Positions 7,588 to 44,045 of a stretch of DNA of 64,000 bases are shown here, one piece after another (position 1 is the stretch's first letter; each line of letters starts with the position of its first letter). Source of the DNA: Pyropia yezoensis (Eukaryota > Rhodophyta > Bangiophyceae > Bangiales > Bangiaceae). The DNA lies in assembly GCA_009829735.1 (NCBI GenBank), contig CM020618.1:7380627-7444626 (forward strand), read 5' to 3'. The notes beneath the pieces were generated by a model. That model was not told where the DNA came from. It made no database searches and saw nothing but the letters and a program-made list of their open reading frames with translations. The position numbers were made by a program, and so were the translations under genes.

Positions 7588-9560
7588 ATGGCCAGAGCGT
7601 CTCTCCCCAACTTGGGGAGAGCCATGGCGACTCCGGGAGCGGAGACGGACTCTCTTGACGAGCGCATGGAGGACACCTCCTACGGGGCAGCACCCGCCGG
7701 GACTTCCGCCGGGGGCTCCGCGATCGCTCCGGGGGACGGGACTCCCGCGTCACCCGGCTTTGGGTTGACGGCGGGGTCTCCCCCGGAGGCGGGACAAGTT
7801 GTCCCGCGCGAGGCCTTGGGGCGGTGTTTTTACCCCGCTTGGCCTCTCTATGAGGAGGGGCTGACTGTTCTTCGCTGTGGCCGACTTGGCGCAGCGATGG
7901 GCCGGGTACGGGACCGCCTACGGGAGAAGTATCCCCGTAGGGTCGGGTTCCCTGCCGGCTTCAGGACGGACCAGTTTGCCTTCCTGGACGATGAGGAGGT
8001 TGAGGACGTTCAGCGGGCCAAGGCCATGGTGGACCGCGGGGGAACTATCCCGGGTCCCGGCGACTTGCCGACCTTCACGTGGGACGCTGTGGCAACTCGC
8101 CCACCGTACCTTCACGAGGCCGATCCGCACACTCATCACTTTGATGTGCGGATGGAGAAAGACTTTCGGCGAGGTCCCTACTTGGTGACCTCGGCTCAAC
8201 TTGAGTTCCCTCAGCAGTCTGCTGCCAGTAAGGAGCAGTACTATCCGAAGAAGCCCGAGTGGTGGCCTCAAGTTGAGGTCCCCTACCGGTTCCCGGCGTT
8301 GTTGCCACGGTTGCTTGACCACTTCGGCTCCGTCTTGTTGACGGCTGCCCCTGATCACCTGGTGTGGGCCATGTTGGCCACCCAGTGGCTCCTCGAGGTC
8401 ATGTCGACCTAGGTGTCCTGTGTTCAGCGGCGGGGGATGCTCTGGCATCTCCCCCTCCGGCTCATCCAAGGTTTGGAACAGCTCACCCCTCAGCTAGTTG
8501 CTGAGAGGTGCTCATCAGGACAACTCACTCTACTTGAGGAGATGCTCCGGCTCCATCAGTTTTTCGAGTGGGAGAGCATTGAGCACAAGTTGCGCCGCCA
8601 CACTCGTGGGCCCAAGGACGATGGCGCACTTCGCCAGTTCGTGTGGGTCGCTCGTGAACTTCACGACGGCCGTGTGGTCCTACGAGAGGGGTTGGGCATC
8701 GGGGACTACCCGTATGCCCCGGGGGTGGATCGCCACACTGCGCCACCCCCGGACAAGCCCACAGTTATGGCCGTGCCGTCCTATGATGACCATATGACTC
8801 AACCCACTGCGGGGGCCCCAAGTCGGGGTCGCAGTTACACCCGGGTACCGCCACCTCGGCGGGCCCCTCCGCTTCCTCCTGTTCCTTTCCCGGGAACATC
8901 CCGATCAGCGTGGCCGTTGAGTCGTCCACCCCGGTTTCCCCCAACTTGGGGGCCACCCTCCTGACGGTATACCCCAAGTTGGTGTTGCCGCCCACGCCTC
9001 TAATCTCAGAGATGATGATCACCACGTTGGTGCGCACCATTTCCTGGTAGGCCGCGTCGACCGCAACCCTACAGAGTTCCGAGACTCCTCAACTTGAGGA
9101 GCGCGTTCGTACTGCAGTGGCGACCGCGAGTTGCGAGTCGGTGGCGGAGTTCATGACAGCCGAGTTGCCTCGCATTGGGGCAATTATGCCCCAGCCAGCG
9201 CCACTTGGGCGTGGCAAACGTCGCGCGAGCCGGGCATACTCGCCTCCTCGCCGTCGTCGCCGACACTCGCGGCGCTCTCCTTCCGTATCAGAAGACGAGT
9301 TGTCTTACTCCGTTTCGGAGTCCTCTACCCCGTCGGAGACGGAGTCTGTCCAGCGTCTGCGTCGCAAACTGGCGCGCAAGACCAGGCAGAAGAGTGGCCA
9401 CAGTCGGCGCCACTTGCGCGACCGTGAGGGGCGCGACGGTTCCGACTTGGAGCCGCCGCCCCCTTTAACGAGTGGAGACCGTTATCGGCGTGGGTCTCGC
9501 CGCTCGCCTCCACGTGAGGGCGAGGGCCGTGGAGTGGGAGAGTCTAGCATGCGTGCCTAG
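7588..9560 (+). pseudogene. Antisense accessory gene, younger B element, left copy
   Basis: Lies between pol and the 3' LTR on the strand opposite to gag-pol. It starts at ATG 7588, inside the 21-base palindrome region. The N-terminal 70 residues are Gly/Pro/Ser-rich. A globular region follows (YPAWPLYEEGLTVLRCG, DHFGSVL, RRGMLWHLP, LRLHQFFEW), then a Pro-rich stretch and a very basic Arg/Ser-rich tail (RRRRRHSRRS) ending at 9560. Breaks: TAG at 8410-8412 in place of a Trp codon, a net 7-base deletion near 8885, and TAG at 9048-9050, which the older copy shares. The domain is homologous to the 742-codon antisense frame of element C. I recognise no known family; function unknown. Confidence 0.7.
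7601..7621. repeat. Perfect 21-base palindrome centred on CAACTTG
   Basis: CTCTCCCCAACTTGGGGAGAG overlaps codons 5-12 of the antisense gene. It is the longest of a set of odd palindromes with the same core in A and B elements. Others include 6599-6613, 6746-6762, 7136-7152, 8266-8278, 10845-10859 and 12635-12647. Confidence 0.85.
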
Positions 9561-9671: not shown

Positions 9672-12600
9672 TCACGTTGAGGGAGGGCTGTTAGGGTCTA
9701 TCTCATTCCGGGCACAGTACGCCCGGACCTTCTCAGCGGGAAGGTCCTCCACATACTCCCACGTATCATCCTTGGCTTTGTAGCCAAACCAACGCACCCT
9801 CAACATGAGGCGGTCAGTGTCCTCATCCCATCCGTGGTCGATGAACTTATCGAACACGTACTCCTGCGGGCCCTGTTTGGCCGCAGGCAGCGAGGGGAGG
9901 CGCCACGCTTCCAAAGCACGCGCCCAAGCTGGGTCGCCTGCAGGCGGTGGTGCAACTTTGACCACGTCCTGTCCGTTCACTGTGCGGACCCCATCGTCAC
10001 TTTCGATGGTGAAGCGCCGCCCATCAGTACGAAGGACCTGGTACGGTCCCTTCGTCTGGAATACCAGCTTACCCCCAGTTGGGGTGTGTGAGTGTACCAG
10101 CACCCAGTCACCCTGCTCGGGGACATGCTTAGCATTGCGCACCTTTTTGTCAAAGGGACGCTTGTAGCGCTTTTGTGCTTTGTCCATCTCAGCCCTGACT
10201 TTAGGGATGAGGTTTTCAAGCCTAGCAGCGAACTCCGCCTTACTCTCAGTAGGAGTAGGCGTACTGCCACCATCCTCCCTAGTTGGGAGCGACCGCCGCA
10301 CGGCAATAGACCGCACACGACGGGGGGTTACAAAAGCGAGGGGTACTTCCCCTGTAGATGAGTGAACCTGCGAATTGTAGGCAGTGGTAAGAATAGAAAT
10401 GTATTGGTCCCACGTTTGCACATGCTCACTCACATAGTGGCGCAGCTGCCGAATAATAGTTTTGTTGAAGCGCTCCACCTGCCCGTTGGTTTGCGGGTGG
10501 TAGGGGGTAGCATAGTTTGCCTTAACCCCCAACATATCCAGCACTCCCTGAAACAGTACAGACGCAAATTGCGGTCCATTGTCCGATAGTGTACTATCCG
10601 GAATGCCATACGCGGCAACCCAGTGATCTAGGAAGGCTGACACGACCGACATGGCCGTGATCTCTGCCAGTGGGATCGCTCGCGTAAGTTTCGTGAAGCG
10701 GTCACAGATGACCAGGAGGTACTGGTTGCCCTCCTCGGTCACGGGCAGTGGTCCAAGGATGTCCATCGCCAACGCGGCGAAGGGCTCCTTGGCCGGGAAC
10801 AATAGCATAGCCGTAGTAGGCCGCCGTTCCATCAGACGGTTCTGTGCACAACTTGTGCAGGCAGCCACCCAACTGTAGATGTCCACCACCATGGACGGCC
10901 AGTAGTACCTGGTCCTCAGGGTCTGGTACAGTTTACTAGACCCCAGGTGTCCACCCGTGGGAGCGTTGTGCTCCCTCTCAAGGATACTGTCCTTTAGGGA
11001 TGCGGGGACGACAAGTTGTTCGGTCCCCTGGAATACCCCCGTCCTCATGAGGAGGCCATCGTCTCCCACAAAGAAACGCGTCTCCGCCACTGTATTCAGT
11101 GTATCCCTCTGCGACTTGCAGAAGGGATCCTCGGCCTGGGCCTTCACCACCTCGTCCAGGGACAGGGGCAAGTACTTCTTGTTCCCTGGCGCCTCGGGGT
11201 TCAACGCCTGACCCGAGCGCGTGACTACCCCCCCGATGGGGATGTCCTCATCGACTGGGTTAGTGTCCAGCCCCTCGGTAGGTACCCGAGAGAGGCCGTC
11301 GGCAAGGGCATGTTGCCAGCCAGGTCGGTACTCAATGTCAAATTTGAAGGGTGCCAGTCGCACCCTCCACCGGTTGAGACGAGTGTTCGTACAGTCCGTC
11401 TTAAAGATGAACTGCAGCGCGCGGTGGTCACAGCGGATGAGGAACTTCTCACCCTCCAGGTAGTGACGAAGTGACGTCACCGCCCACACCACTGCGAGTC
11501 CTTCCAACTCGGTGACTCCGTAGTTCTTCTCGGCCGAGTTCAGCCCCTTACTAAAGTATCCCACCGGCAAGTACTCCTTGTCCGGCTGCTGCTGAAGCAA
11601 CACACAACCAAGTTGGTCGTAGCTAGCGTCCACATCCAGGATGTAGTGGCCTCCCAACCTGGGAATAGCCAGGATGGGGGGCTTCAACAGAAGGTCCCGA
11701 AGAGTCTCAAAGGATTCCTGCTCCACCCGACTTGGGGGAGGCAGGTTCTTCGGTAGCGTTGAGCTCACTAGCTCATTCAACGGCTTCGCCACCTTGGCGA
11801 AGCCCTTGGTGAAACGTCGGTACACGTTACACATCCCGAGGAAGCTCCTCATCTGGGTCTGGGTCCGGGGGTACTGAGCCTTACGAATGGCCCTCAAGTT
11901 CTTCTCGCTGACACTGAGACGCCCCGGACGGACAACATGTCCCAAGTACTCCACCTCTTGAGTAAAGAGGTGGCACTTACTCGCCTTCAGTGACACACCG
12001 GCGTCAGCAAGTAGCTTGATCACCTGGCCAAGATGGCCAATGTGTTCCTCCGGACTTCGGGAGAACACAATGATATCGTCTAGGTACACGAGACAGATCT
12101 GCCACCGTACTCCGGCCAGAATCATGTCCATAGCGCGCTGGAAAGTTGCCGGCGCGTTACACAGACTAAACGGTAGACGCTTGCACTGGTAGGTACCACA
12201 GTGACAGGTAAAGGTAGTTTTATGCCTGTCCTCCGGGGCAATGGGAATTTGCCAGTACCCCGCGTTACAGTCCAGGGTAGAGAACACGTTTGCCTCCCCC
12301 AGAGAGTCCAGACAATCATCCATCCTAGGTAGGGGATAACTGTCCTTCACCGTGCTCTCGTTGAGCTTACGGTAGTCGATACAGAACCGGGGGGTCCCAT
12401 CAACTTTGGGGACGATAACCACCGGACTCGCCCACTCGGCGTTGCTGGCCTCGATCACATCGAGGGCCTCCATGCGAGCAACTTGCTCCTTAACGAGGGC
12501 CCTTGAACGAGGTCCTCCCCTATACGGTTGTTGGCGTATAGGGGGTGCACCGGGCTTCAACTCGATCCGGTGTTGGGTGGCTCTCATGAGTCCCAATTGA

Positions 12601-13655
12601 CCATCCCACAACTTGTGATATTGGTCCAAGAGGCGTTCAACTTGAACCCTCAACCTGGGTGGAACACCCTCCATGTTCACATGTGGCCGAGGAGAGGCGG
12701 CCGACTTGGCTTGATGCTTCTCCTTTCCGGGTTTCGGGTCACTACTTGCGCCCGCGTTGAGGGTGACCGCTACTACCGGTCCCTCGTGTTGGTCGATATA
12801 GCCGAACTTGGCTCCCGACTTGAAGTACTTGGGCGTCGGGCTCAGGTTCATCACCTGGATCCTCCACGGGACTCCGGCTTTGGAGTCCATCGTGCCAAGG
12901 GCAACATGCACTTGGTGCTTACGAGCAAGACGGGGGTTAGGGTGCACCAACCCGTTCCCCGTAAAATCAGTTACAACATCAACGTGCGCCACCGAGTTGG
13001 GGGGCAACGTGACTTTGCGGGCCAAACGCAGGGTAGCAGTAAACCCTTCCCTCACCGAACAAACAGGCTTCGACTGTGAGACTGTCACAGGAGCCACAGA
13101 CTTTCCCTTACCAAGGATGGGGATAGTCTCCCCATTCATCAACTTGACCCAGTACTTAGGGCCACAAATCAAAGGCACTTGTGTAACAACATAAGGGGTA
13201 CCCAGAAGCAGGGGTACCGATATATTCTCAACTACACCATAGGTCACGTCGACCTCATGGGTCCCCAACCTAGTTGGTAGGGTCACGGCACCAACGATGG
13301 GAAGTACCCCACCATTGATGTCAATCATATGGTCAGCTTTGGACCTCCAGTGTTGGAGCCTCACCTCCTTTGGTAATAGCGACATGCGAATGAAGGAGGC
13401 TCCTGACCCGGTATCAAGAACGATACGGGTACAGCATGCACGGCCGGGGGCAAGTTGCACCCGTCCAGCCACCTGGAAGTTCTCACCCGTCAGCACCGCG
13501 ATGACCCAACGTGGGTTTACGTTCTTGGGGAGTCCTACCCGAGGTGGGCGGACTCCCTTAGGTCGCCGCAGTATCCGGCACGGTTGGTTCGTCCTCCTGG
13601 CCCACTTGGCCGAGGCTGCCGTTGTGAGCTTCGGACGACCAGCCCCAACGGTCAT
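9672..13655 (-). CDS. pol: B-element Pol polyprotein, left copy
   Basis: 1327 residues, intact. Domains in order: retropepsin with DTGSG at 81-85; reverse transcriptase about 400-580 with YLDD at 524-527; RNase H about 670-790 with D676, E716 and D743; integrase zinc domain H896, H903, C933, C936; integrase core D964, D1025, E1061 (D-35-E spacing); C-terminal chromodomain about 1264-1315 (YVFDKFIDHG...LRVRWFGYKAKDDTWEYVEDL). This makes it a chromodomain-bearing gypsy (chromovirus-like) Pol, which copies element RNA and inserts the cDNA. The RT has LPFSLCN where A has LPFGLCN; all B copies share this. The ATG overlaps the gag TGA as ATGA. The translation is identical to 18338-22321, probably the same locus assembled twice. 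Confidence 0.93.
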   Translation of the reverse strand: MTVGAGRPKLTTAASAKWARRTNQPCRILRRPKGVRPPRVGLPKNVNPRWVIAVLTGENFQVAGRVQLAPGRACCTRIVLDTGSGASFIRMSLLPKEVRLQHWRSKADHMIDINGGVLPIVGAVTLPTRLGTHEVDVTYGVVENISVPLLLGTPYVVTQVPLICGPKYWVKLMNGETIPILGKGKSVAPVTVSQSKPVCSVREGFTATLRLARKVTLPPNSVAHVDVVTDFTGNGLVHPNPRLARKHQVHVALGTMDSKAGVPWRIQVMNLSPTPKYFKSGAKFGYIDQHEGPVVAVTLNAGASSDPKPGKEKHQAKSAASPRPHVNMEGVPPRLRVQVERLLDQYHKLWDGQLGLMRATQHRIELKPGAPPIRQQPYRGGPRSRALVKEQVARMEALDVIEASNAEWASPVVIVPKVDGTPRFCIDYRKLNESTVKDSYPLPRMDDCLDSLGEANVFSTLDCNAGYWQIPIAPEDRHKTTFTCHCGTYQCKRLPFSLCNAPATFQRAMDMILAGVRWQICLVYLDDIIVFSRSPEEHIGHLGQVIKLLADAGVSLKASKCHLFTQEVEYLGHVVRPGRLSVSEKNLRAIRKAQYPRTQTQMRSFLGMCNVYRRFTKGFAKVAKPLNELVSSTLPKNLPPPSRVEQESFETLRDLLLKPPILAIPRLGGHYILDVDASYDQLGCVLLQQQPDKEYLPVGYFSKGLNSAEKNYGVTELEGLAVVWAVTSLRHYLEGEKFLIRCDHRALQFIFKTDCTNTRLNRWRVRLAPFKFDIEYRPGWQHALADGLSRVPTEGLDTNPVDEDIPIGGVVTRSGQALNPEAPGNKKYLPLSLDEVVKAQAEDPFCKSQRDTLNTVAETRFFVGDDGLLMRTGVFQGTEQLVVPASLKDSILEREHNAPTGGHLGSSKLYQTLRTRYYWPSMVVDIYSWVAACTSCAQNRLMERRPTTAMLLFPAKEPFAALAMDILGPLPVTEEGNQYLLVICDRFTKLTRAIPLAEITAMSVVSAFLDHWVAAYGIPDSTLSDNGPQFASVLFQGVLDMLGVKANYATPYHPQTNGQVERFNKTIIRQLRHYVSEHVQTWDQYISILTTAYNSQVHSSTGEVPLAFVTPRRVRSIAVRRSLPTREDGGSTPTPTESKAEFAARLENLIPKVRAEMDKAQKRYKRPFDKKVRNAKHVPEQGDWVLVHSHTPTGGKLVFQTKGPYQVLRTDGRRFTIESDDGVRTVNGQDVVKVAPPPAGDPAWARALEAWRLPSLPAAKQGPQEYVFDKFIDHGWDEDTDRLMLRVRWFGYKAKDDTWEYVEDLPAEKVRAYCARNEIDPNSPPST

Positions 13656-16253: not shown

Positions 16254-18226
16254 CGATGGCCCAGAGCGTCTCTCCCCAACTTGGGGAGAGCCATGGCGAC
16301 TCCGGGAGCGGGAGACGGACTCTCTTGACGAGCGCATGGAGGACACCTCCTACGGGGCAGCACCCGCCGGGACTTCCGCCGGGGCTCCGCGATCGCTCCG
16401 GGGACGGGACTCCCCGCGTCACCCCGGCTTTGGGTTGACGGCGGGGTCTCCCCCGGAGGCGGACAAGTTGTCCCGCGCGAGGCCTTGGGCGGTGTTTTTA
16501 CCCCGCTTGGCCTCTCTATGAGGAGGGGCTGACTGTTCTTCGCTGTGGCCGACTTGGCGCAGCGATGGGCCGGGTACGGGACCGCCTACGGGAGAAGTAT
16601 CCCCGTAGGGTCGGGTTCCCTGCCGGCTTCAGGACGGACCAGTTTGCCTTCCTGGACGATGAGGAGGTTTGAGGACGTTCAGCGGGCCAAGGCCATGGTG
16701 GACCGCGGGGGAACTATCCCGGGTCCCGGCGACTTGCCGACCTTCACGTGGGACGCTGTGGCAACTCGCCCACCGTACCTTCACGAGGCCGATCCGCACA
16801 CTCATCACTTTGATGTGCGGATGGAGAAAGACTTTCGGCGAGGTCCCTACTTGGTGACCTCGGCTCAACTTGAGTTCCCTCAGCAGTCTGCTGCCAGTAA
16901 GGAGCAGTACTATCCGAAGAAGCCCGAGTGGTGGCCTCAAGTTGAGGTCCCCTACCGGTTCCCGGCGTTGTTGCCACGGTTGCTTGACCACTTCGGTCCG
17001 TCTTGTTGACGGCTGCCCCTGATCACCTGGTGTGGGCCATGTTGGCCACCCAGTGGCTCCTCGAGGTCATGTCGACCTAGGTGTCCTGTGTTCAGCGGCG
17101 GGGGATGCTCTGGCATCTCCCCCTCCGGCTCATCCAAGGTTTGGAACAGCTCACCCCTCAGCTAGTTGCTGAGAGGTGCTCATCAGGACAACTCACTCTA
17201 CTTGAGGAGATGCTCCGGCTCCATCAGTTTTTTCGAGTGGGAGAGCATTGAGCACAAGTTGCGCCGCCACACTCGTGGGCCCAAGGACGATGGCGCACTT
17301 CGCCAGTTCGTGTGGGTCGCTCGTGAACTTCACGACGGCCGTGTGGTCCTACGAGAGGGTTGGGCATCGGGGACTACCCGTATGCCCCGGGGGTGGATCG
17401 CCACACTGCGCCACCCCCGACAAGCCCACAGTTATGGCCGTGCCGTCCTATGATGACCATATGACTCAACCCACTGCGGGGGCCCCAAGTCGGGGTCGCA
17501 GTTACACCCGGGTACCGCCACCTCGGCGGGCCCCTCCGCTTCCTCCTGTTCCTTTCCCGGGAACATCCCGATCAGCGTGGCCGTTGAGTCGTCCACCCCG
17601 GTTTCCCCCAACTTGGGGGCCACCCTCCTGACGGTATACCCCAAGTTGGTGTTGCCGCCCACGCCTCTAATCTCAGAGATGATGATCACCACGTTGGTGC
17701 GCACCATTTCCTGGTAGGCCGCGTCGACCGCAACCCTACAGAGTTCCGAGACTCCTCAACTTGAGGAGCGCGTTCGTACTGCAGTGGCGACCGCGAGTTG
17801 CGAGTCGGTGGCGGAGTTCATGACAGCCGAGTTGCCTCGCATTGGGGCAATTATGCCCCAGCCAGCGCCACTTGGGCGTGGCAAACGTCGCGCGAGCCGG
17901 GCATACTCGCCTCCTCGCCGTCGTCGCGACACTCGCGGCGCTCTCCTTCCGTATCAGAAGACGAGTTGTCTTACTCCGTTTCGGAGTCCTCTACCCCGTC
18001 GGAGACGGAGTCTGTCCAGCGTCTGCGTCGCAAACTGGCGCGCAAGACCAGGCAGAAGAGTGGCCACAGTCGGCGCCACTTGCGCGACCGTGAGGGGCGC
18101 GACGGTTCCGACTTGGAGCCGCCGCCCCCTTTAACGAGTGGAGACCGTTATCGGCGTGGGTCTCGCCGCTCGCCTCCACGTGAGGGCGAGGGCCGTGGAG
18201 TGGGAGAGTCTAGCATGCGTGCCTAG
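16254..18226 (+). pseudogene. Antisense accessory gene, right copy of the duplicated block
   Basis: Same sequence as 7588-9560, including the shared TAG (8410 equivalent) and the 7-base deletion. It also has about ten extra single-base indels in homopolymer runs (for example at 16260, 16385, 16465, 16490, 16668, 16997, 17226, 17359 and 17927). They fade out away from the gap. Most likely sequencing errors at a contig start. Confidence 0.75.
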
Positions 18227-24383: not shown

Positions 24384-24852
24384 TGTGGTAGGAACCACTT
24401 GCACACACGACACCCAAGTTGGGGCGGTGTACAAGGGCTGCCTCCCGTGTCGGGGGAACCGGAAGAAGTGCAAGTCGCACACACTCTGTCCCTGTTGTGG
24501 GGCAAAGCCCCCACGGACAAACAAGAGGATGGTGTGTGGTCCAACAGTTTCTTGGTCGGGAAAGGGACGCAGGGCCAAGCCCCACTGTCCCTCCCCTTAT
24601 CCCCCCAGGGTCCACTCAGAATCTCGCCACCCAGAATCTCCCACCCCAGCACCTGCCCACCGGGCCACACGAAAATTCAAGACGATAAATGCAGAAAACC
24701 CTCAAATCCAAGTTGGATTTACTACTAGGCTAACTATCCCAAACTAAGGAAATTTGAACCCAAATGCAGGGGGAGGAACGGATCAGGCTAGTGGCCTGCC
24801 GCCCCTTGCATGGCACGTGTTGCCCCCCTACCTGGGGGTCAATACTGCCACA
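24384..24852 (-). repeat. Younger B element, 5' LTR
   Basis: 469 bp, plus strand TGTGGTAGGAACC...ACTGCCACA, directly next to the primer-binding site. Right flank CTTAT. In places it looks more like the older element's LTR at 31421 (AACGGATCAGG) than like its own partner at 6816. Confidence 0.85.
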
Positions 24853-25262
24853 CTTATGACGGCCGAGTTGGCTCGCATTGGGGCTATTATGCCCCAGCCA
24901 GCCCCACTTGGGCGTGGCAAACGTCGAGCGAGTCGGGCATCCTCGCCTCCTCGCCGTCGTCGCCGACACTCGCGGCGCTCTCCCCCCGTGTCGGAAGACG
25001 AGTTGTCTTACTCCGTCTCGGAGTCCTCGACTCCGTCAGAGTCGCAGTCGGTCCGGCGTCTGCGTCGCCAACTTGCGCGCAAGACTAAACAGAAGGGCAG
25101 CCGCGGTCGTCGCCACTTGCGCGACCGTGAGGGGCGCGGCGGTTCCGACTTGGAGCCGCCGGCTCCGCCGACTGGTGGGGAGCGTTATCGCCGTGGGTGT
25201 CGCCGCTCGCCTCCTCGTGATGGCGAGGGCCGTGGGGTTGGAGAGTCTAGCATGCATGCCTA
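24853..25262 (+). pseudogene. Antisense accessory gene of older B element, second part
   Basis: Continues the gene interrupted at 6815. It encodes the basic Arg/Ser-rich tail (GKRRASRASSPPRRRRRHSR; LRRQLARKTKQK; RDREGRGGSD) and ends at TAG 25260-25262. Compared with the younger copy (9152-9560), I counted by eye about 20 silent and about 20 replacing codon differences over some 135 codons, against roughly 1:3 expected without constraint. The tail therefore looks protein-coding and selected. An ATG at the junction (MTAEL) could also start a separate 136-residue frame. Confidence 0.7.
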
Positions 25263-31883: not shown

Positions 31884-33321
31884 GTACACTTGGCGCGTCA
31901 CCACGCCAATCACGGTCTTCTTGTCCAGGGTTGGCGCAGTGTGGCGTTCCACCCCCGGCGCATACGGGTAGTCCCCGATGCGGAGCCCCTCCTTGAGTAC
32001 CACGCAGCCGTCGTGAAGTTCACGGCCGACCTAGACGAGCAAGCGAAGGGTGCCATAGACCTTGGACCCACGGGAGGGTCGGCGCAACTTGTGCTCGATG
32101 CTCTCCCACTCGATGAGCTTTTGAAGCCTCAGCATCTCCTCAAGTAGAGTGAGACGGCCCGACGGGCAACCCTCAGATACTAGCCGAGGGGTGAGCTGCT
32201 CCAAACTTTGGATCAGGAGGAGCAACAAGTGCCAAAACATCTTGCGTCGCTGTACGCATACTACCCAGGTCGACATGATCTCGAGATGCCACAGTGTTGC
32301 CAACATGGCGAACACTAGATGGTCCGGTCTAGCCGTCAACATGACGGAGCCATAATGGTCAACCAACCGCGGCAACAATGCCGGGAATCCATCGGGGATC
32401 TCAACTTGATGCCACCACTCAGGCTTCTTGGGGTAGAGTTGCTCCTAGTTCGCCGGCGCTTGTTGCGCACACTCAAGTTGAGCTGAGGTCACCATGTAGG
32501 GACCTCGCCGGATGTCCCTCTCCATCCGTGCATCACGATGATGCAGTTGGGGGTCAGTCGTACGTAGGTACGCGGGGTGAGTTGCCACCGCGTCCCAGGT
32601 GAATGTCGGCATGTTGCCGGGGCCCTCCATAGTAACCCCGCGGTTCAACAAGTTCTTTATCCGCTACACGTCTTCGACCTCCTCCTCGTTGAAGAAAGGC
32701 GAACTGGTCCGTCTTGCAGTCATGACGGACACTGACCCTGCGACAGAACTTCTCCCGTAGGCGCCCCCAGACGCGTTCCATTGCTGTACCAACTCGTCCA
32801 CAGCGGATAACCGTCAAGCAGTCCTCATACAGAGGCCAGGGCGGATGAAACCACATTCCCAGGCCCTCCCGTTGAGTTACGGGGCCTGCCTCCGGGGGAG
32901 AGCCCGCCGCCAACCCAGAGTCGGGTGGCGCTGGCACCCCATCCCCCGATGCAACCGAGGGGCTCCCGCCGGAAGTCCCGACGGGTCCTACGACGTAGGA
33001 TGCATCCTCCATACGCTGGTCCAGGGAGTCAGAGTCCAACCCAGGACTCACCTTGGCTCTCCTTAAGCTGGGGAGAGACAACTTGGTCACAGCTTCCCGA
33101 GGTCCACCTCGAGTTGAGGGGGACCTTGGTCGAGGGTAGACTAGGGGCCTCCCCAACGTGAAATGGCCCCGGGTAAGGTGAAGGAGATGTGTTGGTGCTG
33201 AAGAGGTAAGTGCAAGCTGCCAAGTGGGCAAGCTTTAGAAGAAGGGTGGTCGACGAGACCGCCTCCTCGTCAACGTGACGTACCGGGGGATCGCAAGTCG
33301 CGCCCCCGGGGAGCGCAACAC
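31884..33321 (-). pseudogene. Element D antisense accessory gene, degenerate
   Basis: B-like antisense gene in inverted orientation, meaning that D itself is a plus-strand element. Recognisable pieces: WPLYEDCLTVIRCGRVGTAM, DQRMEDASYVVGP, DHYGSVML, WHLLLLLIQSLEQLTPRLV and EMLRLQKLIEWESIEH. It is broken by several frameshifts and stops, and ends where the older B element begins at 31884. More diverged than any other copy. Element C is inserted into its 5' flank. The 21-base palindrome of the younger copy has decayed here (33061-33080), so D is old. Confidence 0.7.
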
Positions 33322-33684
33322 TGTAGCACAATAGGGATCCGTCGCACGTCCACTCTCAGGGAACACTCACCAAGGGGGATCGGCACCAACGTCACCGGGA
33401 GGCCAAGGTTGCTGTCCTTGGAGCGCAAGCCACGGGACCAAGATGGGAGCCCAAATGGGAGGGGTTTGTTGTTTTACCTTGGCCGGCGGTGGATTCGCCA
33501 CCGGCCCCCTCGTTATAAACCCTCGGAGACACTACTAACTACCCTCCACCCAAAGATGCAAGTCCCTCTAGTCCTACGTAACTTATAGATACCGTGACCA
33601 GTACGGACTCTCAAATTGAAAGCCAAGGATTAGAAGTAGCCCCACTAATATTAGGGTCACAATACGGACAACCATATTGCTACA
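33322..33684 (-). repeat. Element C 3' LTR
   Basis: 363 bp, flanked outside by AACAC and inside by the polypurine tract. It contains the TATA-like GTTTATAACG (minus strand, 33512-33521) and, just downstream of it on the minus strand, a GC-rich hairpin (CCGGTGGCGAATCCACCGCCGG). Confidence 0.95.
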
Positions 33685-33697
33685 TATCCCCCCCTTA
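33685..33697 (-). promoter_or_regulatory. Polypurine tract of element C
   Basis: The minus strand reads AAGGGGGGGATA directly before the 3' LTR start TGTAGCAATATGG. Confidence 0.8.
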
Positions 33698-34275
33698 GAT
33701 TCGGCCCGTCTTCGGGTCGAGTTGCATTCGGGTTACCGAATGTAAGTGGGTCGCGTGACCGTTTACCAGTCGGGTGGGGCTTTGCGCCCCGTCGCGACAG
33801 ACACCCCTTTTCGAGGTTGTCTGAGGGGGGTGCCCCCCTTTGTGTGGTACACACACGATCCGTTTTCCGGACCGTTAGATTCCCGATGCGGGTTTCTGTT
33901 CACGACCCCCCTTTCCGAGGGGTGGTGCAAGCGGATCCGCCACCAGGTGCCTGGTGGTAGGGGGGCCCCTCTCGTGTGGACGATTGAGTGGGGGGCGGGG
34001 GCTGCCCGCGTTACGTGGGGGCGGTTGGGGGTGACCCCCCCTCGATTACCCCGTGTGGGGGGGGGCGTGGCCCCGCCCCAGGTGCCTGGCGGGAGCGCCC
34101 TCGTAGGTCGGCTGGCGCGGGTCGTCCCGCGCTTCCCTATCGCTGGTGCCCAGCTGTGTGGTTATAAGCGCGGGTGCCCGCGCTTCCCTGGCTCGTCTGT
34201 GCGAGCGTTCTCTGTACCGGGTCGAGCCGGCCTCGGCTTTTCTGCAAGGGGCGCCCCTGCCACCCCGGTTGCACC
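33698..34275 (+). promoter_or_regulatory. Leader or promoter region of the antisense gene of element C
   Basis: About 580 bases between polypurine tract and antisense gene with no credible frame. It is GC-rich with several direct runs of C and G. A TATA-like TTATAAGC lies at 34162-34169, about 107 bases before the first ATG of the antisense gene (34276). The LTR also has a nearly symmetric TATA (TTATAAAC at 33513-33520 on the plus strand) that could fire toward the antisense gene. Promoter activity is inference. Confidence 0.35.
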
Positions 34276-36644
34276 ATGTCGGACCCCCAGGTACCCGGGG
34301 GCGAGGACGACCTCCTGCCTGAAGAGGGGGAAGAGGTGATGGTGGACGACGTTCCCGTCTCCGCCACCGTGGCGATTGCTTCCTAGCGAGCTCGTCGGAG
34401 GACGAGGACGACCGGGTGACCGTTCGTGTGGCCCCGGACGGTGCTCCGGGCGGTTTGTCGTCCGTGTGCAGCGGCACGACGGCTCCGTCGGGTGGCGGGC
34501 AACCGCGGGTAGCTGCTGCGTCTACCCCTACTCCTCCGGCGGCCCGGATGGCTTCTATCGCCGGTGCCGGCGCGGCTCAACCTCAAGACGGCGTCGCCGG
34601 CGTGTCGGGCGGTTATGGTGGCACCCCGACCGGGACGGCGGGTCAAGACGGCGCGGGTGCCCGCCCGGGTGGTTCATCCGCGGCTGCGGGTGGCGGGTCT
34701 ACCCCTGCTGCCCCCGAGGTGCCCCCGACGGGCTCGGATGGCGGCGTTGCTCTGGCCGCGGTGCCGCGGGCGTCTGGCGGTCAAGGTGGGTCTACACCGA
34801 TGGCAGTGGACTCCGGTAGTTACTCCGGGCGGGCGCCCGCCCTTCTTCATCCTCCTCGGCCGCGTGCGACTCCGGCGCCGGCCCCTCTTCCGGTGGGGCA
34901 TCCCCCGGCGCCCCCTATTCTTCCTGGTCCTGCCCGGGTTGCCCCGTTGGGTGGCGGCGTCGCCGTGGCGGCGGGTCAACCCGCCATGTCGATGTTCGAC
35001 TTGGTGGCTCGGGTTCGAGGCCTGACTGTACAAGAGTCAATGGAGTCCGATGGGCGGATGCGGGTGGACTTCCACCTGCCACATCCCCGTGGAGAGCCCT
35101 CCCGGCGCGTCAAGGTGGACCCGAATTGGGAGCGGGAGTTGATGCGGCTGGTCAACCAGCCGAACGCGGTGCGAGTGGAACACCATTGGATCCTGAGTCA
35201 GCCGGACGACCGGCATGCGCAGCTCTGGCGTACTCGGGTGGGACGGGGTGAGGTCTACCTCGACCCCGCCTTCGGGGTATGCGACCTGATTGCTCCCGCG
35301 TTGCCGCGGGAGATTGACTACCCGGCTAGTGCTCGGGGGATTGCGGCGGCGGCGGAGCCGGTTGCGTTTGGGGAGACGGTGGGCGGTACCGGTCGGTATC
35401 CCGAATTTGATTACTACCCGGGGGTATCCCCGTATCTGTCGTTGACGGCTCCCTACCCGCCTATGGCGGGGTTGAGGTCGGCGTCGAGCTGGCGACGTAA
35501 CCATGGTGTCATGGCGGATGCGTTTCGCACGGATATAACGTGTGCGTTGCAGACCGGCAACGGTCGTGCGCCGGTATACACTCCCGTGCGCCCGCCGCTA
35601 TGGCAGGAGGGGTGGGAACCCGCCCCTGCTTTCCGGTTTGACACCGGCTCCTGTCTCCGATACTTCGGGAGTGTATTGGCCTCCCGGCCGGTCCACCCGT
35701 TGCAGGGTACCTTCACCCTTGAGGTTACCCTCGGGCAGGCGTCCTCCTTCTTGCTGTCCGTCCGCCGGCAGGGGCGCCTGTTTCATCTTCCGACGGGTGT
35801 CCGTCGGCACATCGCGCAGTTGGGCGTGGACCTGATAGCTGCCAAGACCGGGTTGGCCCGGGAGTTCGAGGCCCTGCTGGCTGTTCACGATGCCGTGAAC
35901 TGGGCTGGGGTGTTGGCCCTTCCCCCGTACCGGGACCCGCAGGCTGGGGCTACCCCCTTGCCTCGTCACTCGTTGCGTATCCGGCGTACTCAGCCGGGTG
36001 AGCCTAGTTGCCATGGGTGGGCGTCCACCGAGGCCGTTCCTGACCTGGGTATTCCCATGGTTATCCATGACCCTCTTCAGGTCCTTGCCCCGTGGTTCGG
36101 TAACCCGATACCGGCGGCGGTTGGCCGTCGTCCCCGAGAGTGGGGCTCTGCGGGTGGGGAGCGTGAGGTGTCCCGTCGTCGGGCGGAGCCCCGCCGGGGT
36201 TACGGTGGAGCCCCTTCGGTAGGGTCCTACCGAGCCTCGTATCAGGGGCCACCGGCTCCGGTGGTAGCCGTGTCGGCTCTTGTGGCTCCTCTGGCTGCGC
36301 CAGTGTCATCTCCCGCCCCTGCCCTACATGACGGGGGTCCCCGTCTCTGGTACGAGGGCGTTGACGCCCTTGTTGCCCGCGCAATGCGGGAGGGTCTCTC
36401 TGTTAGCTGGGGGGATATCCCCCCAGGTGCTGCGCTAGTTGGGTCAGCGCGTTGCTTCGGTGGCGTGCTGGACCGCCTCCAGAAAGCTCTGGAGGACGTG
36501 GAGGCTGGCCGCAGCACCCTCGTCCAGCTATGCACCGAGGTAACTCGGGTGATTGACCGTCGTGAGATTGCCGACCGGTGGAGCACGGAGGTATACGCGC
36601 TTACGCGTGAGTGGCCTCCCTCGGGCAGTGGGTCTACACACTGA
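34276..36644 (+). CDS. Antisense accessory gene of element C
   Basis: An open frame of 742 codons (34416-36644), open from 34323, lies opposite to gag-pol between pol and the 3' LTR. The start is unclear. An ATG at 34276 opens an acidic 36-codon frame ending at 34386, one base out of phase, so a one-base indel or small intron may join them. The first in-frame ATG is 34548 (698 residues). Residues 1-190 are Ala/Gly/Pro-rich. A globular part at about 200-530 includes YFGSVL, RRQGRLFHLP and AVHDAVNW, which match the B antisense protein in order and spacing. A helical C-terminus follows. No transmembrane segment or catalytic motif is apparent. Function unknown. Confidence 0.75.
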
Positions 36645-37098: not shown

Positions 37099-40000
37099 TT
37101 ACAGTAGGCGTCGTCGCCTCATGAAAGGCATGAGGAGTTGGCGGGGCATATTCGCCGCCTGTTCCCAGGTGGGTGAGTCGTATCCGACCCACATAACCTT
37201 GACGTACCAGGGTCCTGGTAGGTTCGGGTGGGTGTGTCCGACCACGCTCTCTACTTGGTATGGAATCCCATCCGGTCCCACCGGGTCATCTGACCGGTGG
37301 GTTGTAAGAGCTTCATGTAGCAACCCAGCCGGTGCCGGCTGAGGCTGTTCCGGCTTCGGAGCAGGTGTGACATCATTCACACTGATGCGTTGGATCTCCG
37401 TATCGGAGTGTAAGATAACAGAGTGGTCATCTCTGTGGAGAATCTGGTACGGTCCCTTGACCGGTTGCATGAGCTTGTTCCCCCGGAACTTCTGGTGTCT
37501 GATGTAGACCCAGTCACCTGTTACCAGGGTAGCGTTGCGCACCCGTAGTCGGGCGTCGAAGTTCTTCTTGTAACGAAGTTGTGTTCTGTCAAGGGCACCC
37601 TTGAGCTTCGGTATCATCCACGATAGCTTGGCCAACCAAGCTAGGTGGATACGTTCGGCCGGTCGGCCTTTCGGTGTATCATACCGAGTGCACCTGCCTG
37701 GCGGCAGCGTCAGGTTACCGACGCCTAGTGGCATGACCCACTCCAGCGGAGCGATGTTCGTGCTCCGATGTGGCCTGGCATTGTATGCCAGGGTGAGTAC
37801 GGACAGAAGCCTGTCCCAAGTGTTCGTGTGCTCGGCCACGTAGCACTGTAGCATCTTGACGATGGTGCGGTTGAACCGCTCCACCTGCCCGTTGGTTTGC
37901 GGGTGGTAGTCGGATGCCCGACGTGGTTCGATGCCGAACATGCCCAGGACCTTAGTGCAGAATGCTGACGTAAGGTTTGCTCCGTTGTCGGAGAGGAGTT
38001 GCTTCATGACTCCGTATGCACTGATCCAGTGGTCAACCACTGCGTTCATGATGGTGTATGCCGTATCATTCGGGATGGCTGCCGCTCGTGACAGCTTAGT
38101 GAAGCGGTCAGACATGACCAGGATATACCTGTTCCCTTCTTCCGTTACCGGAAGTGGCCCGAGTATGTCGATAGCGACTTGCTCGTTGGGCCCATCGGGT
38201 GGGAATAGCTTCATGGCAGACGCCTGCCTATGTAGACTCATGCGGTTACGCGCACAGGGGTGGCATCCCCTTACGTGGTCGACCACGTCGACGGCCATTG
38301 CTGGCCAGTAGAAGAACCTTCGCATTGCTGCGAACATACGTGAACCCCCCGGGTGTCCGGCTGTGGGGTTCTCGTGTTCTCGTTCCATGACGGCTTGCGG
38401 TAAGGACACGGGAACCACGACTTGATGTCGTCCATCAGCGGGTGCCCGCCGGTATATGAGTCCGTCTTCGTTCTCGGAGAAGATGCCGGCCGTACCGGCC
38501 AGGAGGTTAGCGCGATGACGTCTACAGTCGTCGTCATTGGCTTGTGCCTCGCGGAAGTCCGCGAGGGTTAGTGGGCATGCTCGGTGTGCCATGGTATGGT
38601 CAACCATACCTTGGGTAGCGTTACCCACCATGCAGACCGGTACCACCGGGATGTCCTCGTCCACCGGGCGGGTATCCCCGCTTGGGGTGTCGAGTCGAGA
38701 CAATGCGTCTCCGAGATCGTGGGTTGACCCAGCCTTATACACGGTACGGTAGTCGTGCTCGGCCATCTTTAGCCTCCATCGGGCTAGCCTCCCATGGCTA
38801 TCGGAATCCTTGTCACCAAGGTTGAGGAGCCATCGTAGGGGTTCGTGGTCGGACCTCACGATGAACCTGGAGCCCTCCAGGTATGGACGGAGCAGTTGCA
38901 CTGCCCATATAACTCCGAGGCATTCACGCTCGGTGGCACTATAGTTACGCTCAGCCGGGTTGAGTGTCAGGCTGAAGTATCCTACCGGACGTAGGTCCGG
39001 GATAACGTTATCGGTACCGATCAACGTCTCCCCCTGTAGCAGGGTGCATCCCACTTGGGTGTCGCACGCATCGACATCGATGACGAAGGTACCCCGTCGG
39101 TGCGGTAACGCAAGGACGGGTGGGGATAGTAGGGCTCGCTTCAGTGACTCGAATGCCTCCTCTTCGCTAGGCGAAGGGGGTTGGAGTACCTTGGGCAGGG
39201 TACTGCCCGTAAGAACCGTTAACGGTCTAGCTATCCGAGCGAAGTCCTTGACGAACCGTCGGTATACATTGCACATTCCCAGGAAGCTCTTGAGCTGCGT
39301 CTGGGTGTTAGGGAACCGGGCATCCCGGAGTGCCCGGGTATTGGCTTCGAGTACCCCTAGTTTACGAGGGGTTATCTGGTGGCCCAGATACTCGACCGTC
39401 TGTTGGAAGAAGGCGCACTTCTTCAGACGCAGGGTTACCCCGGCGTTCCGCAAGAGGGTGAGTACCTCGTCCACATGTTGCACATGGTCATCCATGTTAC
39501 GCGAGAAGACGATAACGTCATCGAGGTACACTAGGCAGTTACGCCACTTCACCCCCGACAGTATAATGTCGATAGCCCGCTGGAATGTAGCGGGGGCGTT
39601 GGACAATCCGAAGGGCATCCTTAGGAACTCGTACACTCCACTGTGACAGACGAATGCCGTCTTGGGGATATCCTCGTCCGCCACCGGGATCTGCCAGTAT
39701 CCGGCATTGCAGTCGATGGTGGTAAACACCGTAGCTTCCCCCAGGGAGTCGATGCTTTCATCCATCCTTGGTAAAGGGTAGGAGTCCTTCTTGGTAACCA
39801 AGTTGAGGCGTCGATAATCGATGCAAAACCGAGGGGTTTGATCCTTCTTCGGTACAATAACGACTGGGGCACCCCACTCCGACATCGAAGGTCGTATCAC
39901 CTTCGGTTCACTCATCCTCTTCACTTCTCCATCAACGATCTCTCGTTGCATAGGTCCCGCTCGGTGCGGTTGTGACCGGGCGGGGCGTGCGCCTGGTACC

Positions 40001-41265
40001 AGGTCAATACGATTTTGGGTTGCCCCAATGGTACCCAGGGCTCCGCCTGTCCACATGACGTCATGCTTTCTTAACATCCGTCGTACCCCTTCGGCTACGG
40101 AAGGGGGAAGGTGGTCGAGGTCAGCCTCGGCCAGTGCCTTCAATGCTTCTTGGTCCTTCGGCGGAATATCCGCCGGTAATGATGGTCGACTAGGCTTCCC
40201 GTCATCGGGTTGCTGTCGCTCGGTGGTCTCGGCGACCGCCAGCACCTCAAGTGGGTCCACTTGACCTTCCTTGTCAGGGGTAAGGATATCTCCTTCGTAG
40301 AGCTCGGCAATCCCGAGGATAGTTCCCTTCGGGAGGGTGACTGCCTTACGGCGGTAGTTCGCCATCACTAGGAGGGACGACCCTCCTGCTGGGAGGTCTA
40401 TGAGACCGTTGGCCATGGTCAACCCATGGCGCTTGTACGTCCGCAAGTTGGACTTGACTCTGCAGATGCCTGCGAGGTCACAGTTAACCGGGAGGACTGT
40501 CTCCGACAACGGCTCAAAGCGAGTTCGCTTGGCCAACCGAAGTGTTTTCGGCTCGACACTTGCGTACACCTCAGCCACGTTAACGTGGCTCCCTTGTAGC
40601 GTCAGGTCTCTGACGATAGCCGTGTGTCCTCGCTTCGTCCCGTCGGCTTCTTGAAGCTCGACGATCCTCCGGCCTGGCCGGATTGCATCCACGTGAACGT
40701 TGATGAAGGTGCACCCCAGTATGCAGGGCACCGATAGGGTCTCACACACCAGGAAGTCGACTTCCGTAGTGAGTTCCCCGATGGTAACCCGCAGCGACAT
40801 CGCCGCGGTCGTACGAATGAGGCGACCATTCGCATCCTTGATGGTGGGTCCCCGAGTCACTCTGACTCGCGGAAGCCACTTGTCCGGGAGGGTATCCTTC
40901 CTGATAAGGTTGGGTCCAGCCCCTGTATCCAGTACAGGGTAGTACGATCGTGTCGACTGGGGGTCAACCCCCAGTGTGGCTGATACCTTGAAGTTCTCCA
41001 AGGTAAACAGCACGTGGCCTACACCGATATCCGGTGTAGCTCGGGCATCCTGAACAGGGCCCTTGTCTGGTTCCATGTGACGGGGCTTCCCGTCCTCTCC
41101 TCCCAACCTTGGTGGTTGGTCATCAATCCCCTGACGCCGTGTCGTCGGGGCCGGAAGGTGTACCCGGGGGTTGATGCGGCGTCGGCTCAACCGCGCTCTC
41201 CGTGGGGCTTTCCCCGCGGTACTCCGGGGTGGCTTGCCTGGGTTACCCCAGCGCCGCCCGGTCAT
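37099..41265 (-). CDS. pol: Element C Pol polyprotein
   Basis: 1388 residues from ATG 41265. Protease DTGAG at 113-117; reverse transcriptase about 455-640 with YLDD at 580-583; RNase H with D732, E779 and D806; integrase zinc domain H964, H971, C1001, C1004; integrase core D1033, D1093, E1129 (D-35-E). The C-terminal about 50 residues (YQVESVVGHTH...WYVKVMWVGYDSPTWEQ) look like a chromodomain. All catalytic residues are present and no stop interrupts it. Unlike B, the gag TAA lies 8 bases before this ATG, and the -1 frame meets TGA at 41278-41280. Frameshifting from gag would therefore fail, and reinitiation or a recent mutation must be considered. Confidence 0.93.
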   Translation of the reverse strand: MTGRRWGNPGKPPRSTAGKAPRRARLSRRRINPRVHLPAPTTRRQGIDDQPPRLGGEDGKPRHMEPDKGPVQDARATPDIGVGHVLFTLENFKVSATLGVDPQSTRSYYPVLDTGAGPNLIRKDTLPDKWLPRVRVTRGPTIKDANGRLIRTTAAMSLRVTIGELTTEVDFLVCETLSVPCILGCTFINVHVDAIRPGRRIVELQEADGTKRGHTAIVRDLTLQGSHVNVAEVYASVEPKTLRLAKRTRFEPLSETVLPVNCDLAGICRVKSNLRTYKRHGLTMANGLIDLPAGGSSLLVMANYRRKAVTLPKGTILGIAELYEGDILTPDKEGQVDPLEVLAVAETTERQQPDDGKPSRPSLPADIPPKDQEALKALAEADLDHLPPSVAEGVRRMLRKHDVMWTGGALGTIGATQNRIDLVPGARPARSQPHRAGPMQREIVDGEVKRMSEPKVIRPSMSEWGAPVVIVPKKDQTPRFCIDYRRLNLVTKKDSYPLPRMDESIDSLGEATVFTTIDCNAGYWQIPVADEDIPKTAFVCHSGVYEFLRMPFGLSNAPATFQRAIDIILSGVKWRNCLVYLDDVIVFSRNMDDHVQHVDEVLTLLRNAGVTLRLKKCAFFQQTVEYLGHQITPRKLGVLEANTRALRDARFPNTQTQLKSFLGMCNVYRRFVKDFARIARPLTVLTGSTLPKVLQPPSPSEEEAFESLKRALLSPPVLALPHRRGTFVIDVDACDTQVGCTLLQGETLIGTDNVIPDLRPVGYFSLTLNPAERNYSATERECLGVIWAVQLLRPYLEGSRFIVRSDHEPLRWLLNLGDKDSDSHGRLARWRLKMAEHDYRTVYKAGSTHDLGDALSRLDTPSGDTRPVDEDIPVVPVCMVGNATQGMVDHTMAHRACPLTLADFREAQANDDDCRRHRANLLAGTAGIFSENEDGLIYRRAPADGRHQVVVPVSLPQAVMEREHENPTAGHPGGSRMFAAMRRFFYWPAMAVDVVDHVRGCHPCARNRMSLHRQASAMKLFPPDGPNEQVAIDILGPLPVTEEGNRYILVMSDRFTKLSRAAAIPNDTAYTIMNAVVDHWISAYGVMKQLLSDNGANLTSAFCTKVLGMFGIEPRRASDYHPQTNGQVERFNRTIVKMLQCYVAEHTNTWDRLLSVLTLAYNARPHRSTNIAPLEWVMPLGVGNLTLPPGRCTRYDTPKGRPAERIHLAWLAKLSWMIPKLKGALDRTQLRYKKNFDARLRVRNATLVTGDWVYIRHQKFRGNKLMQPVKGPYQILHRDDHSVILHSDTEIQRISVNDVTPAPKPEQPQPAPAGLLHEALTTHRSDDPVGPDGIPYQVESVVGHTHPNLPGPWYVKVMWVGYDSPTWEQAANMPRQLLMPFMRRRRLL

Positions 41266-41273
41266 CCTTCCTC

Positions 41274-43457
41274 TTACTCATTTCCCGCCCTTGGTAGGGT
41301 GCTGTCCGCCGGGCCATCCGGCTGAGGAGGTGCCTCCTCGACGGCCAGTACTCCACCTGGAGCTGGCTGCCTACCCGGTGCGGGTCCGGGTGCTCTGGCG
41401 GGATACCCCCCTGGGGATGCCTTGCGTTGCGCCGCTGCCCTCCGAGACTCCTCGGGGATAAGTGGGCAGGAAGACACCCAGTGCTGGGGATCCCCGCACA
41501 ACATACATCCGGACGTGCCGGTCCCCCCTTGAGTTCGCATCGGGGTAGCCCCGTAGCTGCGGTTGCCTCCCTCGGGCGCCCGAGTGCCTGCTCCCTGGTA
41601 GGCCTTGGGTCCTTGGGTCAACCGGAACATGGACTCCCCCAACCGGTTGGGTCGGCCCGCAATCTGCGGAGGTGCCTCCGTGCGCACCGCCCATGTTGGC
41701 AAGGGTTGGTGAGGGTTACCCGTCACCGGGGAGTACCCCGTAGTCCGCACATACGGGACGCGCCGTCCCGTTCCTTCGTTGACCTGGAACTGGGTTCCAG
41801 CCGGGGCGATGTACGCTACCGTACCATGTTCATCAATCACCGGCGTCGCCGGTAGCAACAGGTGGCCCTGTTGGTCGACTAGAGGTTCATCCTCACCAAT
41901 AGGGGTATGTTCGGTCGCCACCAGTACTGGTGCGGCCTTACGTTCCACCTTCTCTTGCCTCGGTACCGGGGTAAGACTGGGTTTGCCTCCCTCACCCTTG
42001 GGCTTCGGGGCCAAGGTACATTCCGGGTGTAGAACCCGGTAGGCGTCCCCTAGGGACTTGCACATGTGCATCAGTCGACTGAAGTTCGTCCGGGCCGTAT
42101 TGGCTCCCCGTGCGGATATCCGCACGTAGTTGGGTACTCCTGCGAACAGGATGGCCCGTAGTTCCCCTTCTCCGAGGAGCTTCCCCAGCTCGTAGTCGAG
42201 CTCTTGGATCCGGCGTCCAAACATCTCCTCATCCTCCCAGCTCTGGGCGGTGCCAGTGCGCAGGGCCCGGTAGTGGTCCTCGCCCTTGTCCTCACTGAGG
42301 TAACTGCTCAGCAGCTCCTTGAGGATCCCACGGTAATCCATGGGGGTGGCCGCGACCCTCATTCCCGGCATCGGGGATGCCTGGCGAAGAATGCCTCGCA
42401 CCCGTTCATCAACAAAGAACGGGAGGATCTCCAGCGCCAGCCCCTCGTTGACGAGCGCCTTGTCTGCGGCTGCCTTGAAGCTAGTCAAGAAGCCGATGAC
42501 TGCCAACGGGCGTCCGTTCGGCCCCCCGAACATCGGGACTCCCTTCATAAGGGTCTGCATAGAGCGGATCGCCCGATGCGACGTATTACGCATCGATTCC
42601 GATACGGTGGTAGAGCGGTCCTCCAAACGATAACGTTCGGGAGTCAGTACCGACCGGAAGACCTCGTTGACGATCTCCGTGTCGGCGTCCTGGATATCCA
42701 GTCGCTTAGCCAGTTGATGAGCAAACTCATCGGACTCCATCCGCTTCAGTAAGCTCGCAGTTACCTGCGCGGTCATAGCTTCCACCACTGAAGATGGTAC
42801 TTCAGGCGTCGGCACCTCGGGAACCCGAGTTGCCTGGCCTTCGTCGTCGAGGGGATACTGTGAGAGGGTACCCCCTCCCCCAATAACCGACTCTCCACCG
42901 GCGTAAGTATCCGCCGGGTCGGGTCCGCGGAGTCCGCTTCGGGTGCTCCGAGCGTATCGCTCCGTGTGACTCCGTTCCAACTCTGCCGACGAGTCGGATC
43001 CATACCCCATTGTGTCCGGGGGTTATCCAGGAGTAGCAACACCGGGGTTGACCCTGGTGGACTCCGAAAGTAGTCCGGCCGGTTCGAACCGTACCGGTGT
43101 GGGAGGAACACGTCGGGGTCCCGTCGTGTGGCGTGTTGACATCAACACTGCCATTGCGTCCTCCGTCCGATCTTGACGGGCGTCGAGTCCGGAGAACCGG
43201 GCCTCGATGCGGGCCAATGATGCCATCAGGGAATCCCCTGGTGAAGGAGGCGGCGGAGTGAGGTCGGTCGATGACAGTTGAGGCGGGCCCCCGCCTCCTG
43301 CCGTCCGAGCCGTGCCAAACGTCGATCCGGCGCCGGAAAGCATTGGCGTCTCAATGTTGTCGGTCGGGTTCCCGATCCCAGTTCCCGTAGTCACCTCCGG
43401 GGTCGGCGTCGACGCCGATCCGTCATCTTGAACGTTCCCCGTCTCTTGGGTAGACAT
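41274..43457 (-). pseudogene. gag: Element C gag with one in-frame TAA
   Basis: The likely start is ATG 43457 (MSTQETGNVQDD), giving 144 codons, then TAA at 43023-43025, then the same frame continues with ATG 43010 for 578 codons. The second part holds the capsid-like domain and a CCHC knuckle, CMLCGDPQHWVSSC, about 77 residues from the end, followed by a Pro-rich tail. The N-terminal Ser/Thr/Pro-rich segment resembles in composition the N-termini of the A and B Gag proteins, so one interrupted gene is more likely than two. Translation of the downstream part alone (578 residues) remains possible. Confidence 0.8.
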
Positions 43458-43662: not shown

Positions 43663-43681
43663 GTCCCCTGCTGCTCCACCA
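43663..43681 (-). promoter_or_regulatory. Primer-binding site, element C
   Basis: TGGTGGAGCAGCAGGGGAC on the minus strand, one base inside the 5' LTR. Identical to the B-family site although the LTRs are unrelated. Confidence 0.8.
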
Positions 43682-43682
43682 A

Positions 43683-44045
43683 TGTAGCACAATAGGGATC
43701 CGTCGCACATCCACTCTCAGGGAACACTCACCAAGGGGGATCGGCACCAACGTCACCGGGAGGCCAAGGTTGCTGTCCTTGGAGCGCAAGCCACGGGACC
43801 AAGATGGGAGCCCAAATGGGAGGGGTTTGTTGTTCTACCTTGGCCGGCGGTGGATTCGCCACCGGCCCCCTCGTTATAAACCCTCGGAGACACTACTAAC
43901 TACCCTCCACCCCAAGATGCAAGTCCCTCTGGTCATACGTAACTTATAGATACCGTGACCAGTACGGACTCTCAAATTGAAAGCCAAGGATTAGAAGTAG
44001 CCCCCCTAATATTAGGGTCACAATACGGACAACCATATTGCTACA
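43683..44045 (-). repeat. Element C 5' LTR
   Basis: 363 bp, same termini as 33322-33684. It drives gag-pol on the minus strand, with TATA-like TTTATAAC at 43873-43880. Right flank AACAC. Confidence 0.95.

Follow-up and report, generated by a model that had tools for sequence, protein, structure and literature searches.

The window, by which we mean the whole stretch of 64,000 nucleotides analysed here, comes from the genome of nori, in which repeats are reported to be predicted over 48% of the sequence, LTR elements above all (PMC7423979). It contains element C, a Ty3/gypsy element whose gag (41274..43010) and pol (37099..41265) lie on the minus strand between a 5' LTR (43677..44045, minus) and a 3' LTR (33316..33684, minus). 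The two LTRs are 97.8% identical, and next to the 3' LTR on the plus strand comes a pyrimidine run, which reads as purine on the sense strand. A long frame runs on the plus strand, antisense to gag-pol, in the interval from pol to the 3' LTR. This arrangement is as the earlier note on this DNA had described it; the extent is not, for positions 34276..36644, taken there as a single gene, are not one open frame in the window copy. A frame break near 34374 splits the ATG at 34276 from the remainder, and the open frame, of 773 codons, is 34323..36644. Reading 20 genome copies of the C gene showed a frame of at least 824 codons without a break in 14, of exactly 825 in nine, and the same in-frame start motif inside the frame in 16. 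Counted from the ATG of this motif the C protein has 789 residues (copy L006). The 825 codons of the intact region can be set against its first-order Markov versions, whose longest open frame had a mean of 252 and a maximum of 565 codons in 500 trials.

Three parts of the encoded protein can be placed on the plus strand of the window. The conserved core, which runs from FGSVL through HLP to H...NW and holds the columns common with family B, is at 35640..35915 (residues 409-500 of P0001). Behind it an Arg-rich stretch occupies 36123..36203, and a C-terminal helical segment is predicted at 36333..36608 (block pLDDT from 37 to 80, the model as a whole being of low confidence). Upstream of the gene and adjoining the 3' LTR lies a low-diversity block (33686..33976, plus strand), a candidate promoter or leader. 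In 20 C copies, the roughly 300 bases beside the 3' LTR (from about -600 to about -300 relative to the ATG) differ at only 0.015-0.030 pairwise per 60-base block, which is below the diversity of the gene's third codon positions (0.050). The corresponding values are 0.070-0.153 for -300 to -120 and 0.056 for the whole 600 bases. This pattern fits a promoter or leader, or some other role of that end of the element.

Elements B and D, to which the earlier note had also assigned an antisense gene, are separate elements of one family, being 99.39% identical across 8.2 kb of DNA. The place and strand of their gene are as claimed, with the qualification that the copies of B, D and C in the window are all broken. 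In element B the gene (7624..9557, plus) is interrupted by a stop, located between FGSVL and HLP, and shifts frame near 8890; in element D (16312..18223, plus) it matches only as pieces in different frames. The pol of element B is at 9672..13655 on the minus strand, with more copies at 18338-22321 and 25375-29358, and the first two of the window pol copies have zero classifiable differences. The region 6825-31883 as a whole consists of three tandem B-type units with common LTRs, spaced by about 8668 and 7037 bases. The third of these units is without most of the antisense gene, only the last 140 codons being present (24841..25260, plus). We considered a gene-less B derivative that had multiplied and sought it through the junction in the third unit. 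None was found among 40 scored genome matches, where both sides of the junction are covered by the window's own match only and the longest other match stops about 10 bases past it. Two further pieces of the gene are a partial copy with a 295-codon open frame that contains the core (5824..6711, plus) and a diverged B-like fragment (31902..33231, minus) with a DNA identity to B of about 75%. Seven divergent B-like genes (L071-L077) have 58-67% protein identity to the latter, so that B is better seen as a group of subfamilies.

Element A, with its gag at 3329..5107 on the minus strand, wrongly looked gene-free, two gag copies being only 6474 bases apart. This reading was rejected, since a run of N lies in between and both of the two gap-free genome copies that were read carry a 665-codon antisense frame downstream of pol. 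For family A the position of the gene is thus given as behind pol, while the LTRs were mapped for B and C. The claim that the gene is common to two gypsy families therefore stands as far as the sharing is concerned, and the count has to be raised to at least three. Two more details concern the family-A pol in the window: a 595-base stretch of it is present in three tandem copies about 99% identical at 409-2178, and inverted C LTR fragments at 1-287 flank the broken family-A pol.

The arrangement in family A was followed across the genome. When the best 69 copies of the gene were scored (one of the 70 A rows, the second piece of one locus, being left out of the placement test), 40 of 74 family-A gag hits had a match within 20 kb downstream, and the other 34 had none nearby among these copies. 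In all 40 linked cases the nearest match is on the opposite strand. The distance between gag and the gene falls at 5.5-6.5 kb in 26 of the 40, where 1000 random placements yielded 0.03 cases on average and never more than 1. Stop-free copies make up 47 of 60 in family C, all 133 in family B (matched part) and 59 of 70 rows in family A; only the best-scoring copies were listed, which inflates the fractions, and the copy counts are to be read as at least these values.

The antisense proteins of the three families are related, although not to the same degree. The C and B proteins match in BLASTP at E 2e-11 with 25% identity across 230 residues, and a profile comparison with hhalign gives a probability of 87% and E 3.7e-6. 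A second, differently built profile comparison gives E 1e-4 and 58%, and the core alignment scores 51 bits, while none of 100 shuffles exceeded 27. The alignment in order of FGSV, HLP and H...NW/EW, which the earlier note had seen, is therefore significant, and the profile match between B and C on which the note had made its claim depend was found. The A and B proteins are closer (37% identity, BLASTP E 2.5e-46, tblastn 1.8e-45). Between A and C the direct similarity is weak (21%, BLASTP 0.001; hhalign 6.8%, E 0.005), so their link depends mainly on B. Invariant columns in nine B and C sequences include FGSV, HLP and the following His. As a common motif HLP is aligned in C and B but is not strict, being absent from three of five B-type proteins checked (the divergent L071-L073). 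Relatives of the protein are also present in Pyropia vietnamensis.

The earlier note left it open whether the families had inherited or exchanged the gene. Identity of the antisense protein decreases from A-B (37%) through B-C (25%) to A-C (21%). The order is alike in pol, with 65% for A-B (C-terminal piece), 40% across 1315 residues for B-C and 38% for A-C (again the C-terminal piece). It is the same in gag where this is resolved (A-B 49% over about 350 residues, B-C 24%, no significant match between A and C). The agreement narrows the choice: it favours joint inheritance of the gene from a common ancestor of these related families, and exchange is less favoured.

To what extent is the protein itself maintained? 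Of 40 C copies fetched, 25 passed the filter, with a mean dN/dS of 0.34; for B, 20 of 37 passed, and the mean is 0.12. These sets are without 15 C and 17 B loci, some of which are open but have other start or end motifs or N. Five divergent B-type copies, with L071-L073 added, give pairwise values of 0.18-0.36. Copies were picked by protein score and open frames alone were counted; because of this selection, stretches outside the query were measured too, as uncorrected ratios. For C the ratio is 0.19 outside the query (codons 0-47) and 0.37 inside (25 copies); for 19 close B copies it is 0.10 (codons 0-222) and 0.20 (480 to end) outside and 0.07 inside. A single A pair, with 38 differences, has an uncorrected ratio of 0.42. 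The constraint is not uniform along the protein. Within the C protein, the Ala/Gly/Pro linker evolves almost without constraint (dN/dS 0.92, codons 60-150). The core, by contrast, is strongly constrained, at 0.14 over codons 430-530 of the intact frame, corresponding to residues about 383-483 of P0001.

Constraint shows in the positions of the differences as well. In 12 disjoint C pairs they are distributed over the three codon positions as 250/227/525, and 486 of 1001 classified differences (49%) are nonsynonymous. Redistributing these changes over random sites that match in base and CpG context gives an expected share of 0.700 (sd 0.014). The picture is alike for two B pairs, with 106/79/252 by codon position and a nonsynonymous share of 0.455 against 0.705 expected. 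Of the other five frames in C, four show a nonsynonymous excess, not a deficit. The fifth, on the minus strand and using the same wobble positions, has a deficit too (0.74 versus 0.69 in the gene's frame), and 43 differences there involve stop codons. The antisense protein is thus under purifying selection in the gene's own frame, and a dN/dS near 1, which would have spoken against a gene, was not found in C or B. The gene is real, with A-B and B-C homology and a common place and strand, and the view that a conserved accessory protein is common to distinct gypsy families is supported by both homology and selection.

The C protein starts with 50 acidic residues (net charge -13 to -15), followed by the Ala/Gly/Pro linker, the core, the Arg-rich stretch and a helical end. 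In B a mildly acidic start (-4 to -7) and the core are followed by an Arg/Ser-rich tail (net +13 per 40 residues). The acidic start is absent from A (+2, -1), where the core is followed by an Arg-rich stretch (+7 per 40). An Arg-rich stretch behind the core, of +6 or +7 per 40 residues (+13 in the tail of B), is common to A, B, C and the P. vietnamensis proteins P0004 and P0005. The basic Arg/Ser tail to which the earlier note had drawn attention is present in B as described; in its strong form it belongs to the B family alone, and A and C have the weaker stretch only. In AlphaFold models the whole C protein has a mean pLDDT of 32.7, with C-terminal helices reaching a block of 80, and the C core has a mean of 45.6, with blocks of 53-66. 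A fold search with the core gave just three PDB matches, at E 7.6 to 9.6 and probability 0.03 or less. Given this low confidence and a fold search empty of meaning we claim no fold, and the helicity is weakly predicted.

Searches for known families agree with the statement of the earlier note that none is recognised. In Pfam the C protein has no match over the cut-off; DUF6214 appears at E 0.062, and its best E, 0.014, seen in 2 of 15 aligned members, is likewise below the cut-off. Ten proteins from A, B, C and relatives gave zero Pfam matches at E 10, and no DNA- or RNA-binding domain was recognised in the Pfam searches of the antisense proteins. Four proteins were without a match in PHROGs, a PDB sequence search returned nothing notable (best E 0.36 and 0.84), and Rfam had 0 matches within the window. 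We also considered an origin of the antisense protein from gag and rejected it, the best E of the B and C proteins against three gags being 0.10.

Antisense ORFs at the same place have been described in the land-plant gypsy elements Grande, RIRE2, Retand and PvRetro13 (PMC7264820). The closest known parallel in arrangement is the aORF-3R or eORF-3'R of plant Tat/Retand elements such as Grande, RIRE2 and Retand, reported as antisense, at the same place, in many copies and in several families (PMC7264820, PMC11963269, PMC6317226). The host of the nori gene is, however, a red alga and not a flowering plant. In addition, the pol ends of the nori elements may be chromodomain-like (Chromo profile at E 5.9e-5 in B, 0.0013 in A and 0.073 in C, all below the cut-off), whereas Retand is a non-chromovirus lineage. 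Transposase_28, encoded in 97% of recently active Retand clusters according to PMC11963269, has 0 matches at E 10 in ten nori-type proteins (PF04195) and 0 in a six-frame search of the genome that was run without a positive control. At most four of six conserved TRP28 positions are found in any of 14 proteins, at scattered sites. A likeness of the core to land-plant domains, considered at one point, is not claimed after the profile searches and this count. The plant mobile domain ORFs of Ogre (PF10536) are also extra proteins of a gypsy element (PMC6317226), and PF10536 is without a match at E 10 in the same ten proteins. In land plants the extra-ORF proteins as a whole are described as many unrelated groups, 314 for gypsy, and any function of extra ORFs in general has been questioned (PMC6317226).

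A second parallel is offered by retroviruses, since the genes for HBZ of HTLV and APH-2/3/4 likewise run antisense at an LTR element's 3' end (PMC10186651). The basic stretches of the nori proteins would fit a nuclear regulator such as HBZ/APH, as would the acidic start found in B and C. Unlike HTLV HBZ, the ten nori-type proteins have no bZIP match in Pfam at E 10; APH-2 is likewise described as being without a bZIP domain (PMC10186651). The nori gene differs from HBZ/APH in host, element family and size, and it is by Pfam rather than by direct alignment that the two are set apart. For Grande, the GENE23 protein is reported to be nuclear and its gene to be transcribed from its own upstream promoter (PMC7264820).

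What might the protein do? Since selection keeps it intact, it likely helps or regulates the element. Selection on the protein together with the Arg-rich stretch that follows the core in all three families makes a nuclear, nucleic-acid-binding regulator of the element, made from an antisense mRNA, the likeliest role, and we put it forward tentatively. The start of the mRNA would lie within the element's 3' LTR end or a little inward of it, and the mRNA would encode roughly 640-790 residues, with a Pro/Ala/Gly-rich linker (in C), a probably helical core and the Arg-rich stretch behind it. The product would enter the nucleus, bind element DNA or RNA or a partner, and regulate expression of the element independently of the sense transcript. 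Our best guess is that its mode would resemble that of HBZ/APH or Grande gene23 as these are thought to work, with no kinship implied. The promoter of its own and the roles that the earlier note had put forward for the gene are likewise conjectural. Because the antisense gene is untranslatable from genomic RNA, a separate transcript of the integrated copy would be needed, and such a transcript could be made even when the sense promoter is silent.

This last feature would also suit a protein that lifts or prevents the silencing of its own family by host chromatin or small RNAs, as such a gene would be needed at times when the sense promoter is shut down. In its effect the protein would then be comparable to VANC of Arabidopsis VANDAL elements. 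We regard an anti-silencing factor as the next in order, on the unlikely side but well worth keeping in mind: protein constraint and many copies are compatible with it without being specific, and Pfam provides no link to any known protein. Somewhat less probable again is a post-transcriptional role, in which the Arg-rich stretch would serve to bind element RNA for export, packaging or translation. The Arg/Ser tail of B is indeed constrained in the five divergent copies (dN/dS 0.17 for codons 520-600 and 0.12 for 600-648; L071 is without the tail), and the Arg-rich stretch behind the core occurs in A and C as well. However, constraint in the 19 close B copies is weaker over the C-terminal part than elsewhere (0.20 versus 0.10 and 0.07), the strong tail is confined to one family, and Pfam gives no RNA-binding signature for the core.

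Returning to the nuclear regulator as the preferred reading, three other explanations have to be compared with it. The gene occupies the env position behind pol, which could suggest a structural or envelope-like particle protein. Yet it lies on the opposite strand and is not made from genomic RNA, no strong membrane segment was found in 14 proteins, and the B or C protein has no significant match to three gags; we consider such a role improbable. The 19-residue hydropathy maxima of these 14 proteins are 1.23-1.56, the usual threshold for a membrane segment being 1.6. About equally improbable is that the antisense RNA rather than a protein is the functional product. In favour of this, other elements are reported to have antisense transcripts that can work at the RNA level (PMC7264820, PMC10186651). 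The constraint follows the codon frame, which is unexpected for an RNA-only role and contradicts RNA as the sole function; an RNA role beside that of the protein could exist. Finally, with a GC content of about 60% and many long overlapping frames in the window, one might think of a chance open frame, or of a passenger gene without selection. The frame test, dN/dS, length and homology across both families and species contradict this, and we give it hardly any credence.

Reports of gypsy antisense accessory genes concern mainly flowering plants among the literature matches listed, and in open-licence literature, at the level of titles and abstract starts, a red-algal gypsy antisense gene appears in none of the matches listed. 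Being selected within families and alignable across them, the nori protein makes a good test case for the role of such genes. It is possible, although we would lean the other way if pressed, that a red-algal gypsy lineage independently evolved an antisense regulator or anti-silencing protein of a new protein family and has kept it since before the element families A, B and C split. If true, antisense control genes would have had separate origins in retroviruses, in land-plant Tat elements and in the gypsy elements of red algae.

Elsewhere in the window, a 394-codon frame at 55034-56218 has a weak DUF4407 match (E 5.8e-6, below the cut-off) and is surrounded by many overlapping long frames.
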